A stretch of DNA of 64,000 bases from Terriglobia bacterium (lineage in GTDB: Bacteria; Acidobacteriota; Terriglobia; Bryobacterales; Bryobacteraceae), in contig JAJPIT010000061.1 in the NCBI GenBank assembly GCA_021324615.1, forward strand, positions 1 to 64,000, read 5' to 3'. The notes beneath the pieces are model-generated. The model ran no database searches and was not told where the DNA came from. It saw nothing but the letters and a program-made list of their open reading frames with translations. The position numbers and the translations under genes are program-made. Within the stretch, counting starts at the first letter, position 1. Each line of letters begins with the position of its first letter. Positions 29,539 through 35,351 of this stretch are shown here, piece by piece.

Positions 29539-29579
29539 GGGCCCTTAGCTCAGCCGGTTAGAGCAGCGGACTCATAATC
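29539..29579 (+). repeat. Orphan 5' half of tRNA-Ile2 (attL)
   Basis: 41 bp identical to 35275-35315, from the first acceptor base through the anticodon loop. It lacks the 3' half, so it cannot make a tRNA, but it should still have the original upstream promoter. Confidence 0.9.
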
Positions 29580-30067
29580 ACCTCAGACCATCTTTCGCCG
29601 AATCTTCGCAAGTAGTTGGATTCCCAAACAAATGCTCGCAAGTTCACTAACTTACAGGGATTGTCGCGATAGAGCTGAGAAGCGCTGAAAAGCCGTGAAG
29701 GGCTTTGACTCCCTGCAAAAGTCCCTACATTTGCGGACCGAGGGCGTGAAAAATTCTGAGGTTCAAAACGAAAGAAAACCTCGATCGTCTGCGGTCTTGC
29801 CGGCGTTTGGCCGCGGTCGGCGCGAGCGTTCGTGATGCGCGTGTCTCCGTTTCCCGCTAAATCGCGAGACGCCGTGCATTGGAAAAACCTTCATCGCTCG
29901 GTCGTTCCTGGAACAAAATATAGCCCGGTTTCAGCAAGATACGATCACCGCGCGACAAACATGCACGATTCCTCTCAAAGTTCAGCAGCGAGCGGCAATT
30001 AATTAGTCAGGAATTCAATTTTTCGCGGCTCACGTTTGGGTCGCGTCGGAAAGAGGCTAACAGAAGA
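29580..30067 (+). other. Non-coding left end of the tRNA-Ile2 element
   Basis: 488 bases with no supported gene. It holds two CGCAAGT motifs (29607-29613, 29637-29643) and a 23-bp sequence at 29707-29729 that recurs exactly at 35200-35222, near the other end. These are likely integrase arm sites. The rest, including an AT-rich stretch near 29990-30025, should contain the promoter of the first element gene and perhaps a replication origin, but I see no iterons. Confidence 0.6.
29607..29729 (+). repeat. Candidate arm-type sites, left end
   Basis: CGCAAGT at 29607-29613 and 29637-29643, and the 23-bp repeat at 29707-29729 (begins GACTCCCTGC, ends GTCCCTACA). The same two sequence types occur at 35200-35257 in the same orientation. 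Confidence 0.6.
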
Positions 30068-30319
30068 GTGAGGGCACCGGTTCAAGGAATCAAAAACACT
30101 GCTCGGCAGGGAGAGGCGATAGCCGCGAGAGAAGAAACATACTTGAAGAGCAAGCGGGACGCCGCGCGTTATCTTGGCGTGAGTCTAGCATCAGTGGAGC
30201 GGTTGATGCGAGCCGGGCTGATCCATGTGCGCGTCGGGAACCTCGTGAAATTTCGGCCTGAGGATCTTGCGGACTTTATCGAGCAGCGGCGCGTCCAGCG
30301 CTCGGGGGATGGCGTATGA
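30068..30319 (+). CDS. HTH excisionase/AlpA-like regulator
   Basis: 83 residues from a GTG. The segment YLKSKRDAARYLGVSLASVE, then RLMRAGLIHVRVGNLVKF is a winged MerR-like helix-turn-helix of the excisionase/AlpA type (about 26-78). Such proteins activate element genes or direct excision by the tyrosine integrase. First gene of the element operon; overlaps the next gene by four bases. Confidence 0.82.
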   Translation: MRAPVQGIKNTARQGEAIAAREETYLKSKRDAARYLGVSLASVERLMRAGLIHVRVGNLVKFRPEDLADFIEQRRVQRSGDGV

Positions 30320-30939
30320 GCGCTGCGAACGACGTTCTCTCGCAAGTGCGCATCAGCGAAGTGTATACCGCGCTCACGGGCTTAACTCCGCGGCGGACCG
30401 GCCGCGACACGTGGCGCGGGCCGGCGACCTGGCGCAACGGCGACGGCTTCAACGTCTCCATGGACGATAGCCGGGGCGTGTGGCACGATTTCGTCACTGG
30501 CGAAGGCGGCGGCGTGCTCGATCTGGTGCAGCGGGTCCAAGGTGTCAATCGTGCGGATGCGTTGAGATGGGTTGCGGACTTCGCGGGCGTTACGCTGGAC
30601 GATCGGCCGGCGACTCGCGAGACGCGGCGCGCGATCGGCGAGCGGCGCGAGCGGGAACAGCGGGAGCTGCAAGAAGCAGGGTTTTTCCGCTTTGCGGCCG
30701 TGCGGATGGCCGAGGAAATTCTGGACGTATTGCCCGAGGCCGTCCCGGAGCGATCCGGCCCTACTCAATTGCGGCTTGCCCTTCGGACGGCCGAAGGCGC
30801 GGCGCTGCTCGCGATCTACCGTGATTTCCGCTCGCGTGAACCGCGGCTTACGGCAGGATTGGTCTTCTCAGGCGAGCGCGCATGGAATCGACTTTGCAAA
30901 CGGCTTGCCCTGTCTATCGAGGTGCAGCATGTTGCCTGA
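30316..30939 (+). CDS. Primase zinc-finger-like protein without zinc ligands
   Basis: 207 residues. Residues about 10-95 follow the CHC2-type primase fold (WRGPATWRNGDGFNVSMDDS, VWHDFVTGEGGGVLDLVQRV), but the Cys/His ligands are replaced (W, R, F, T), so it should not bind zinc. The second half is helical and unknown. Usually this domain sits in front of a helicase in satellite replication proteins; here the helicase-like protein follows as a separate gene, overlapping by 11 bases. A role in element replication is inference. Confidence 0.65.
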   Translation: MSAANDVLSQVRISEVYTALTGLTPRRTGRDTWRGPATWRNGDGFNVSMDDSRGVWHDFVTGEGGGVLDLVQRVQGVNRADALRWVADFAGVTLDDRPATRETRRAIGERREREQRELQEAGFFRFAAVRMAEEILDVLPEAVPERSGPTQLRLALRTAEGAALLAIYRDFRSREPRLTAGLVFSGERAWNRLCKRLALSIEVQHVA

Positions 30940-33427: not shown

Positions 33428-34081
33428 ATGGTCAAAGCGTTCGCGTACCTCAGAGTTTCCGGCAAGGCGCAAGTGGAAGGCGACGGATTCACCCGGCAGT
33501 TGGAAGCGATTCGGCGCTATGCAGCCGCGCACGATATCAAGATCGCGCGCGTTTATCGCGATGAAGGCGTGAGCGGCACGAAGGACCTTGAGAACCGGCC
33601 GGCGTTCGTCGAAATGATGACGGCGCTGCACTCGAACGGAACCAAACTCGTACTCGTGGAAAAGCTCGATCGCCTGGCGCGCGACCTGATGATACAGGAA
33701 ACCATCATCGGCGACTTGCGAAAGAACGGCTTCGAACTGGTTTCGGTCATGGAACCGGACCTATTGCAGGATGACCCGAGCCGGAAGCTGATGCGCCAGA
33801 TTTTCGGCGCGATCTCCGAATACGAGAAAACCATGATCGTGGTGAAGCTCCGCGGCGCGCGTGCACGTGCTCGCGCAAAGACGGGACGCTGCGAAGGCCG
33901 GAAGCCGTTCGGGTACTTCGAGGGCGAAACGGACGCGCTCGCGCGTATAAAAGCGCTGCGCGGCGAAGGATTGGGTTTCGATCGGATCGCGGCGCGGCTG
34001 AACGAAGAAAAGATTTCGACCCGGACCGGCAAGCCGTGGCACGGGGTTGTGGTGAATCGGATTCTCACGGGAAAGAGGTAA
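33428..34081 (+). CDS. Serine recombinase (resolvase/invertase family)
   Basis: 217 residues. Catalytic N-terminal domain with AYLRVSGKAQVEGDGFTRQ (nucleophile Ser near residue 11), LVEKLDRLARDLM and the E-helix around SEYEKTMIVVKLRGARARA. A short Recombinase-type C-terminus (GRKPFGYFEG, IAARLNEEKISTRTGKPW) is present, but the zinc ribbon and coiled coil of large integrases are not. Four bases before the tyrosine integrase gene, so the two recombinases are one transcription unit. It could resolve dimers or control excision. Confidence 0.9.
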   Translation: MVKAFAYLRVSGKAQVEGDGFTRQLEAIRRYAAAHDIKIARVYRDEGVSGTKDLENRPAFVEMMTALHSNGTKLVLVEKLDRLARDLMIQETIIGDLRKNGFELVSVMEPDLLQDDPSRKLMRQIFGAISEYEKTMIVVKLRGARARARAKTGRCEGRKPFGYFEGETDALARIKALRGEGLGFDRIAARLNEEKISTRTGKPWHGVVVNRILTGKR

Positions 34082-34085
34082 CGAT

Positions 34086-35297
34086 ATGGCGATTTACAAA
34101 CGCGGTGAAACCTACTGGTACGAATTTCAGTTCAACGGCGAGCGCATCCAAGCGAGCGCGCAGACCACGAACAAAGACGCGGCGCGCACGATCGCAGCGG
34201 CGCATCGCGTGCGGCTGGCGAAGGGCGAAGCGGGTATACGCGAACGGCCGCCGGTTCCCACGCTGGAAGATTTCGCGCCGCGGTTTGAATCCGCGATCGT
34301 GACGCTGTGCGCGGAAAAGCCGGCGACGGTCAGCTTTTACAAAGAGAAGCTCCGCCGGCTGCTCGATGATCGGCAATTGTGCGGCGCGCGGCTGGACACG
34401 ATCGACGAAGCCGTAATCGACGGCTACAAGCAGCGGCGGACCCGGCAGGCTTCCAGGTATGGCCGGCCGCTTTCGCCCGCGTCTGTGAATCGGGAATTGG
34501 CTACGTTGAGGCGTTTATTGCGACTGGCGCAAGAGTGGAAAGTGCTCGATCGTGTGCCGCGCATCCGCTTGCTGCGCGGCGAGCGCAACCGGGATTTTGT
34601 GCTCAGTCATGGCGCCGAACCGAAGTACCTCGAAGCGTGTCCGCAACCGTTGAAAGACGTCGCGATTCTGATTCTCGAAGCGGGCGTGCGACCCGGCGAA
34701 GCCGTTAACCTGCAATGGAGGGACGTTTACCTGCAACCGGCCGTGCGCGCGAAGTTCGGATACATTGCCATTCGTTCCGGCAAGTCGCGCAACGCGAAGC
34801 GCAATCTGAGCCTGACGGCGCGCGCCGCGGCGATGTTGAAAGCGCGAAAGCCCGCGACAAAATCGGACTGGGTTTTTCCGGGCGATTCACCCGAAGCGGC
34901 GATCCTGGGAACGTCGATCGACCATCAGCACGATGACGTGCGAACGGACCTGAAGCTGCCCGCGGATTTCGTGATACATTCGTTACGGCACACGATGTTG
35001 ACGCGCCTGGGTGAAGCTGGCGCGGACGCATTCACTATCATGAAAATTGCAGGGCATAGCAGCGTGACCGTCTCGCAGAGATACGTCCATCCGACTCCTG
35101 AGGGCATGGAGCGCGCCTTCGAGCGGCTGGAAAATCTGAACGCGGCGAAGTTCGAGCAGGCGAAGGCGGAAGCCGAAAAAGAGGCGACCGGGACCGGCGG
35201 ACTCCCTGCAAAAGTCCCTACAGTGAAAAATCGCGTCGCGCGCAAGTCTTCGCAAGTTATTGAATTAACAGCACGGGCCCTTAGCTCAGCCGGTTAG
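34086..35297 (+). CDS. Tyrosine integrase ending inside tRNA-Ile2
   Basis: 403 residues. N-terminal AP2-like arm-binding start (AIYKRGETYWYEFQFNGERI), SAM-like core-binding domain (about 60-160), then the catalytic domain with Arg in EAGVRPGEAVNLQW, HSLRHTML, GHSSVT and Tyr in SQRYVHP. The last codons lie within the tRNA-Ile2 gene, and its TAG stop is made by the tRNA D loop (35295-35297). So attP is the 3' end of the gene. Tail sequence from about 35200 also carries the arm-site repeats. Confidence 0.95.
   Translation: MAIYKRGETYWYEFQFNGERIQASAQTTNKDAARTIAAAHRVRLAKGEAGIRERPPVPTLEDFAPRFESAIVTLCAEKPATVSFYKEKLRRLLDDRQLCGARLDTIDEAVIDGYKQRRTRQASRYGRPLSPASVNRELATLRRLLRLAQEWKVLDRVPRIRLLRGERNRDFVLSHGAEPKYLEACPQPLKDVAILILEAGVRPGEAVNLQWRDVYLQPAVRAKFGYIAIRSGKSRNAKRNLSLTARAAAMLKARKPATKSDWVFPGDSPEAAILGTSIDHQHDDVRTDLKLPADFVIHSLRHTMLTRLGEAGADAFTIMKIAGHSSVTVSQRYVHPTPEGMERAFERLENLNAAKFEQAKAEAEKEATGTGGLPAKVPTVKNRVARKSSQVIELTARALSSAG
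35200..35257 (+). repeat. Candidate arm-type sites, right end
   Basis: 23-bp repeat at 35200-35222 (exact copy of 29707-29729), then CGCAAGT at 35241-35247 and 35251-35257. They lie inside the integrase coding sequence, 18 to 75 bp from the core site. Confidence 0.6.
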
Positions 35298-35351
35298 AGC
35301 AGCGGACTCATAATCCGTTGGTCGTTGGTTCGAATCCAACAGGGCCCACCA
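35275..35351 (+). tRNA. tRNA-Ile2 (CAT, lysidine type)
   Basis: 77 nt with CCA. Acceptor GGGCCCT/AGGGCCC, anticodon loop CTCATAA giving CAT, T arm TTGGT..CCAAC form GTTGG-TTCGAAT-CCAAC. Sequence around the anticodon and T arm matches bacterial Ile2 rather than Met tRNAs, so it should read AUA after TilS modification. The 5' half was supplied by the integrated element. Confidence 0.9.

Follow-up and report, generated by a model that had tools for sequence, protein, structure and literature searches.

Which kind of mobile element occupies a tRNA gene on contig JAJPIT010000061.1 of a Terriglobia bacterium, and how might it travel? The window analysed here comprises the first 64,000 nucleotides of this contig (forward strand; GenBank assembly GCA_021324615.1; Acidobacteriota, family Bryobacteraceae) and holds a small integrated element at positions 29,539-35,351. 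Acidobacteriota are a widespread soil phylum. An earlier reading of the letters alone (the original prediction) had taken the element for a phage satellite, a type of element little described for this phylum. Our analysis supports that reading on several grounds: the presumed small terminase subunit (TerS) of the element has phage relatives encoded beside the large subunit (TerL), a similar gene order recurs in other elements bounded by attachment (att) repeats, packaging-type genes of different families occupy one position after the helicase, a TerL model of limited sensitivity matched none of 21 loci with a close helicase, and TerL-bearing prophage genes are present in the host genome and family. 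We consider it probable, and say so with good confidence, that the element is a minimal, TerS-encoding phage satellite resembling the phage-inducible chromosomal islands (PICIs).

From start to start, the element measures 5,736 bp. It is flanked by direct repeats of 41 bp at 29539-29579 and 35275-35315, the sole long direct repeat, in which the repeat search found no mismatch, just as had been predicted. What is repeated is the 5' half of a CAT-anticodon tRNA. ARAGORN and Rfam identified a single complete tRNA of this kind, at 35275-35351, and no complete tRNA at the left copy. Splicing the flanks at the repeat in silico gave one complete tRNA, and the element is therefore inserted into the 5' half of the tRNA gene. 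The repeats together with the rebuilt tRNA establish integration at this site, and excision may be presumed from them. Of the predicted tRNA-Ile2 target, the CAT-anticodon tRNA was recovered, while ARAGORN labels it tRNA-Met; tRNA-Ile2 is a name that we assume from sequence resemblance. The G+C content of the element is 59.6%, compared to 65.6% in the remainder of the window. The main features are as follows.

29539-29579, plus strand: attL, a 41-bp copy of the tRNA 5' half forming the left boundary (perfect repeat of 35275-35315)
30068-30319, plus strand: AlpA/excisionase-like helix-turn-helix (HTH) protein, 83 amino acids (HTH_17, E 2e-11; phrog_66, 7e-7; TIGR01764)
30316-30939, plus strand: DnaG zinc-ribbon-like protein, 207 amino acids (phrog_510, 4e-11; Pfam CHC2, 0.004, below the cut-off)
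30929-32170, plus strand: AAA_25 (RepA/DnaB-like) helicase, 413 amino acids (AAA_25, 7.8e-35)
32066-32140, no strand assigned: four iterons (CGAAGATGCTCAA, one copy mismatched), two direct and two inverted, the sets 9 nt apart; candidate origin of replication
32167-32568, plus strand: orf4, conserved small open reading frame (ORF), 133 amino acids (partial-length relatives in five loci)
32579-32875, plus strand: TerS-like packaging protein, 98 amino acids (phrog_15261, 1e-11; viral-contig relatives)
32884-33300, minus strand: cargo, putative exported protein, 138 amino acids (signal peptide by rule of thumb)
33428-34081, plus strand: serine recombinase, 217 amino acids (Resolvase, 6e-31; 89% identical in locus L032)
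34086-35297, plus strand: tyrosine integrase, 403 amino acids (Phage_integrase, 2.8e-17; phrog_1, 1.5e-47)
35275-35315, plus strand: attR, 41-bp repeat (perfect match to attL)
35275-35351, plus strand: complete CAT-anticodon tRNA, its 5' half provided by the element (ARAGORN, Rfam, flank joining)

All eight ORFs of the element are open. The AlpA-like HTH protein and the two recombinases, a serine resolvase and a tyrosine integrase, bore out the original prediction. The AlpA-like protein matches the excisionase and regulator family phrog_66 as well as NCBIfam TIGR01764; its weak HTH match to the terminase small subunit family phrog_57 (2e-4) is the sole 'head and packaging' match among the eight genes. 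Scans of these genes against Pfam, PHROG and NCBIfam revealed no TerL, capsid, portal or tail family, and no relaxase or conjugation family exceeded the cut-off in Pfam or NCBIfam (TraI reached E 0.03 for the zinc-ribbon-like protein, far below it), which agrees with the predicted lack of structural and conjugation genes. Of the supposed split primase/helicase pair, only the helicase half could be retained. Its partner covers positions 24-141 of the 667 of phrog_510; the likeness to DnaG-type primases is thus confined to their N-terminal region, and none of the three library scans matched a catalytic primase domain. Its single cysteine lies at position 194 of 207, near the C-terminus, so the zinc-ribbon cysteines are gone; the relative in L032 retains three (31, 52 and 56). 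The pair is better named a zinc-ribbon-like protein plus an AAA_25 helicase. Relatives of the helicase in other elements are 52-67% identical, and orf4, which has no family match in the same scans, has partial-length relatives of 39-75% identity in L023, L024, L025, L027 and L032.

Is the 98-amino-acid protein then a terminase subunit? It had been described as DUF5681/terminase-small-like. Pfam gave no match at E <= 1; the protein matches phrog_15261, a family of unknown function, and its TerS-like character is backed by the gene neighbourhood in phages. Regular-expression motifs for DUF5681 and the HGG type missed the protein of the window itself and gave way to hidden Markov models (HMMs) derived from relatives on viral contigs. 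When these contigs were scanned with an alignment of two rows (the window protein and its L036 counterpart), 101 relatives emerged. Of these, 80 were kept; 79 have a clear ORF, and in 74 it is followed within 2 kb on the same strand by another ORF of 120 amino acids or more. This next gene matched TerL family phrog_2 in at least 52 of the 74 cases in a PHROG scan; 41 of the same 74 matched phrog_979 and others further TerL families, and in 57 of them the next ORF starts within 100 bp. Identity with the viral relatives covers part of the length and reaches about 60% at most. In Synechococcus phage OM868082, a relative annotated as TerS (E 0.006 with the window protein, 2e-7 with that of L036) is followed by TerL and portal genes. 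These phrog_15261/DUF5681-like phage proteins (IMG/VR loci, OM868082) belong to the same family as the 98-amino-acid protein, yet TerL, usually their next gene, does not follow it in the element. Within the host's family, 8 other genomes among 237 searched carry homologues (E <= 0.01): three adjoin TerL (L151, L152, L153), three lie in integrase-bearing stretches without recognised TerL (L147, L149, L150) and two are without clear context (L146, L148). Because its phage relatives are usually encoded directly before TerL, we read the protein as probably being TerS. Terminase genes are taken to suggest phage mobilisation in passages of PMC11389934, and we apply the same logic here.

A broader view comes from the slot after the helicase gene. 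We assembled 45 helicase loci with 5,865 ORFs and split them by helicase similarity into 21 close and 24 distant loci; L033, L034 and L051 (on contigs shared with L023, L025 and L024), L028, L029 and weak family-search matches other than L026 and L027 had been dropped beforehand. Two HMMs were applied, one made from 65 distinct viral relatives of the window TerS and one from 59 distinct viral relatives of proteins in L023, L043 and L044 that share a motif which we call HGGxSTG. All 11 matches (window, L023, L032, L035, L036, L037, L043, L044, L046, L048 and L050) were located on the helicase strand and at most 1.5 kb downstream, a zone holding 334 ORFs (hypergeometric p = 1.7e-14), and all fell to close loci (11 of 21 versus none of 24 distant ones; Fisher p = 3.5e-5). 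Beyond these 11, the slot of L040 from Nitrospira is occupied by a Terminase_2 TerS (5e-15) and that of L045 by a protein with a sub-threshold DUF5681 match. The HGG-type proteins weakly match terminase small subunit families (phrog_10899, 4e-7, for L044; phrog_9231, 3e-6, for L023). In Acidobacteriota, Proteobacteria and Nitrospira, elements with related helicases thus carry at this one position a gene that is either TerS-like or packaging-adjacent. In the viral helicase loci L054-L069, scanned apart, TerS-type matches were absent, one HGG match was seen (L069, beside a TerL match) and TerL was matched in nine loci. The pattern is clear from these counts: the slot appears to be a plug-in position for packaging genes that are swapped between elements.

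Similar layouts recur in elements that are independently bounded. Among 200 genomes of the host family, the helicase search gave 18 matches with E <= 0.001, the host's own included, five of the others falling below 1e-30; among 396 genomes of the phylum it gave 19 with E <= 1e-20, again including the host's own; two short peptide patterns identified 22 loci in the genome collection, and phage records contributed 87 relatives, all below 60% identity. An att repeat was sought in 30 loci besides the window, some without a tRNA, and 11 gave one. Together with the window, these form a set of 12 elements of 5.5-13.1 kb with exact repeats of 41-53 bp at tRNA genes (L023, L025, L027, L032, L039, L093, L098, L105, L109, L111 and L147), 11 of which carry a helicase of this family, several of them distant ones (e.g. 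L027, L111), and L147 another replication gene. Hence the gene order that the original prediction proposed to look for in relatives exists, in similar form, at other tRNAs. Among the matches listed for 88 hand-picked non-core ORFs of the 12 elements (25 PHROG families, 16 of them unnamed, with 33 further families beyond these) were helicases, methyltransferases and a protease, and no named virion or TerL family. The closest relative, L032, stems from a metagenome-assembled genome of the Bryobacterales (Acidobacteriota). It keeps the helicase, orf4 and the serine recombinase, aligning with the window at 69.5% over 1,839 bp (from inside the zinc-ribbon gene to inside orf4) and at 83.5% over 648 bp (serine recombinase); apart from a palindrome matching itself, no other DNA alignment was found. 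Its slot holds an HGG-type protein in place of the DUF5681-like one, its integrase is 27% identical over 231 amino acids and its target is a tRNA-Glu. L147, an att-bounded 8.1-kb element of Acidobacteriota at a tRNA-Arg, presents the converse: its AlpA, TerS, serine recombinase and integrase proteins are homologous to those of the window (29-38%) and surround a different replication gene (L147:4401-6845), which combines DUF3987 (6e-91) with a Toprim-like stretch.

The 3' end of the helicase gene harbours a further shared feature. Four copies of CGAAGATGCTCAA lie at 32067-32139, inside the gene, and the only two other matches in the window have two mismatches each and are far away. The same gapless 75-nt layout is present in L032:11141-11215, L024:14529-14603, L035:1161-1235 (from a Burkholderiales host) and L023:9529-9603, and the inner letters of the iterons shift in concert: GCTC in all copies of the window and L032 and in three of four in L035, GGCC in three of four in L024, GCCC in all four in L023. 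Six pairs show changes on both sides (reached by 31 of 500 shuffles), and the covariation of 0.148 exceeds that of shuffles (0.097; 10 of 500 reach it) and of slid arrangements (0.039-0.112), all of this resting on five sequences from which the helix itself was derived; paired cells, at 78.8%, are no more frequent than in shuffles (80 of 500). Across 44 of the 45 loci (L110 being too short), the best 10-mer averages 3.18 copies where the helicase gene ends (3') and 2.16 in other windows (Wilcoxon p = 6e-6), with at least four copies in 18 loci and only two, the background level, in 16. The iteron array is likely the replication origin. Repeat-rich helicase ends were also observed in the more distant loci L095, L103, L106 and L111.

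Several points weigh against a satellite with an exchangeable packaging gene. Its status is deduced from gene content, and excision, induction and packaging are inferred steps. On viral contigs, the helicases (16 loci) are at most 46% identical, therefore no particle-derived copy of the element is known. Regarding the slot, five of the 11 matches (window, L036, L023, L043 and L044) had seeded the HMM collections while the other six had not, and the statistics treat related loci as independent, which they are not. Ten of the 21 close loci have no match to the two packaging HMMs: besides L040 and L045, the slot gene of L047 merely resembles that of L045 and has no Pfam match, the sequence of L024 stops 1.9 kb past the helicase, and no packaging gene was recognised in the slots of L025, L038, L039, L041, L042 and L049. 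Among 66 genes that follow HGG-type relatives in viruses, 29 match a TerS family of their own (phrog_1482) and at least 27 match TerL phrog_2; HGG-type slot genes are thus genes of the packaging region, yet their identity as TerS is less sure than that of the window protein and does not hold for all. The TerL HMM matched none of the 21 close and five of the 24 distant loci, but it was built from diverse next genes and missed the true TerL of L152, so that absence of TerL is unproven. Finally, the structure model of the window TerS (three helices, mean pLDDT 78.9, pTM 0.47) matches no fold in PDB or BFVD at E <= 0.001. Its best BFVD matches (E 0.003-0.01) are uncharacterised or DUF5681 phage proteins and were left out of the argument, and the PaP3 small terminase, considered as a structural match, was rejected (PDB rank 47, E 8, chance level).

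Could the element instead be what is left of a prophage that lost its TerL, capsid, tail and lysis genes and now decays in place? Integrase, AlpA, helicase and TerS are all phage-type genes, and the TerL matches near distant helicase relatives fit such an origin. Yet decay is hard to reconcile with eight open frames, perfect att repeats and genes under purifying selection: compared with L032, the ratio of non-synonymous to synonymous substitution rates is 0.16 for the helicase, 0.26 for orf4, 0.43 for the zinc-ribbon-like protein and 0.075 for the serine recombinase. Compact layouts moreover recur in separate att-bounded elements, at different tRNAs and with exchanged slot genes, and we regard a defective prophage as very improbable. 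A similarly unlikely reading, in our judgement, is a plasmid-like integrative or a mobilisable element which spreads through conjugation or by excision alone, without the use of phage particles. Helicase relatives do occur on plasmids (15 records, 26-44% identity) and L025 and L027 lack a recognised TerS, but none of the eight genes encodes a relaxase or conjugation family above the cut-off, and the TerS-like gene, like the packaging-type genes recurring in the slot, points to packaging.

A third alternative accepts a satellite and assigns its TerS-like protein a different role, mainly to block packaging of helpers or competitors and not to redirect it. Different packaging families in a single slot would suit inhibitors of different phages, and PICIs do interfere with helper phages according to passages of PMC6092414; the same passages, however, hold the TerS of Staphylococcus aureus pathogenicity islands (SaPIs) responsible for efficient packaging of the island. 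The window TerS is also without sign of relaxed selection, with rate ratios of 0.19-0.24 against two phage relatives and 0.30 against L147 (synonymous divergence being near or past saturation). Interference as the main role therefore seems unlikely to us, if less far-fetched than a satellite-free explanation, and redirected packaging by a PICI-like satellite is the reading that we pursue. With the element proteins related to phage families and the element and its repeats not fixed in the genus (10 congeneric genomes), neither of the observations named beforehand as speaking against a satellite was made.

How would such a satellite operate? Integration into the anticodon end of the tRNA, and excision from it, would be the work of the integrase, with AlpA as excisionase or activator. 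On the excised element, the AAA_25 helicase may initiate replication at the iterons that lie in the 3' end of the helicase gene itself. Priming would perhaps fall to host or helper, since a catalytic primase domain was not matched, and the serine recombinase may, as a guess, resolve multimers. The element TerS would mark satellite DNA and divert TerL and procapsids of the helper to it; the identity of TerS is backed by phage synteny and the redirection is proposed by analogy to known PICIs. Slot genes might be exchanged to match different helpers. Whether all this describes one satellite family across Acidobacteriota, Alpha-, Beta- and Gammaproteobacteria and Nitrospira, with a shared AAA_25 helicase, an iteron origin in the gene's 3' end, a plug-in slot for at least three packaging families and helper switching via one small gene, seems to us an evenly balanced matter; the idea is weakened by viral contigs, where a separate TerS often follows the HGG-type slot gene. 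A TerS-bearing satellite of less than 6 kb, with helicase relatives in several phyla, would extend helper-dependent transduction to Acidobacteriota, and the exchangeable slot would make helper choice of a satellite testable with one gene.

Known satellite families include P4-like elements, PICI, cfPICI, PLE and PICMI, with further proposals in marine and soil bacteria (passages of PMC11389934). As far as our searches of the open-licence literature show, they do not include Acidobacteriota: no phage satellite of this phylum was found there, and the only paper returned for PICIs in the phylum concerns HipA-homologous kinases. The element shows what is generally expected of phage satellites: att-site integration with its own integrase, its own regulatory and replication genes and no virion structural genes. 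Of the PICI traits, it has an AlpA-type master regulator, judged by sequence, and a TerS gene after the replication module. With Gram-negative PICIs of the EcCICFT073 type it shares, as far as PMC6092414 describes them in parts, integrase, AlpA, replication genes followed by iteron sets at the rep 3' end, absence of structural genes and transcription of the core genes in one direction, while TerS is found in some PICI lineages. It differs by its 5.7 kb (passages give about 15 kb for Gram-positive PICIs in PMC6092414 and a 9.5-kb average in PMC10803314), by its AAA_25 helicase and zinc-ribbon-like protein, by an integrase at the far end, after the serine recombinase, and by its origin, alike in position and in the opposed iteron sets but not in the centre: in PICIs two iteron sets flank an AT-rich region directly 3' of rep (same passages of PMC6092414), whereas the two sets here are separated by a 9-nt gap and no AT-rich region. 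The order xis - pri - rep - ori - terS and TerS-based packaging of the island in SaPIs make Gram-positive PICIs and SaPIs, as outlined in PMC6092414, comparable; unlike in these, a divergent Stl/Rpr repressor region was not seen in the element. This likeness concerns gene order and published descriptions; with the size differing, membership in the PICI family is not claimed. PICMI of Vibrionaceae, as portrayed in parts of PMC10803314, resemble the element in size (about 6 kb) and in having an integrase, AlpA, a replication protein and few others. They sit by fis, in contrast to the tRNA site here, and their search model requires a DUF3987/DUF5906 primase, for which the element has no Pfam match; DUF3987 is, however, present in the related L147. 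The word 'terminase' is absent from the main text of that paper.

Which phage could serve as helper? In the host genome, a TerL search with a single family (PF03237) located a TerL at, and cut by, the end of contig C118 (L235), which also carries major head and tail genes. No TerS of this prophage was found in the assembly, a further point against our reading (the second hit, E 0.15, is at chance level); it would lie past the contig end. The C118 TerL is 37% identical over 212 amino acids to that of L152, a family prophage in which a homologue of the window TerS precedes TerL. The C118 prophage and the three family prophages with TerS homologue and TerL (L151, L152, L153) are possible helpers.

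The insertion also separates the tRNA from its old upstream region, because it occupies the 5' half of the tRNA. The following smaller features concern this and the element ends.

29486-29512, plus strand: probable original upstream (promoter) region of the tRNA, which the element has split off (similarity to L128)
29603-29613, plus strand: left copy of the 11-bp subterminal repeat; may be an integrase arm site (second copy at 35247-35257)
29707-29729, plus strand: left copy of the 23-bp subterminal repeat; may be an integrase arm site (exact copy at 35200-35222)
35200-35222, plus strand: 23-bp subterminal repeat, right copy (exact copy of 29707-29729)
35247-35257, plus strand: 11-bp subterminal repeat, right copy (repeat of 29603-29613)

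The 27 bp at 29486-29512 are 89% identical to the stretch preceding the same tRNA 5' half in the congeneric locus L128 and would represent the promoter region. The tRNA now sits after the end of the integrase gene, the stop codon of which falls within it. No second copy was seen in the host genome (other matches: 84% over 56 bases, 75% over 72 bases), and transcription of this apparently single-copy tRNA must now rely on element sequence or on read-through from the integrase gene. The 23-bp and 11-bp repeats, which like the iteron array do not figure in the original prediction, lie just inside both ends, placed as integrase arm sites might be; a 17-bp part of the 23-bp repeat has no further match in the window at up to three mismatches.

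The predicted cargo is present and was corrected to one minus-strand gene, probably 32884-33300, with no family match in the library scans and no paralogue found in the host genome. Export of cargo as a conserved feature was rejected: signal-peptide or lipoprotein genes account for 13 of 95 ORFs near the helicase versus 20 of 136 flanking ones (Fisher p = 0.85), the near set of the window including one gene outside the element. Past the slot gene, L050 encodes a DNA methylase together with a type III restriction helicase (ResIII; L050:5501-9902) and L044 a type I HsdR-like protein (L044:13227-15599); these genes likely belong to the two elements, the far ends of which were not found. Restriction-modification genes are a known kind of satellite defence cargo. 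The TerS homologue at L146:9224-9565 is 49% identical to that of the window, with no recognised terminase or integrase nearby and a tRNA-SeC gene about 3 kb away.

In the genus, a probe of the tRNA plus downstream sequence matches all 23 genomes, the host's included. Among the 10 congeneric genomes without helicase match, nine have a near-complete tRNA copy and one (G193) only the 5' half. A clean pair of filled and empty sites was not obtained, the genes flanking the element being unmatched in all 12 congeneric loci. Two of these, L125:4308-6462 and L126:4431-6584, contain a 2.1-kb stretch between the tRNA and a second, imperfect 45-bp copy of the tRNA 3' half. Neither stretch has an integrase-like match, and both may be remnants or small passive inserts that occupy this tRNA. 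In congeneric G139, an integrase fragment 58% identical to that of the window (L130:3278-3529) lies beside a second tRNA-like match and is possibly the relic of a related element.

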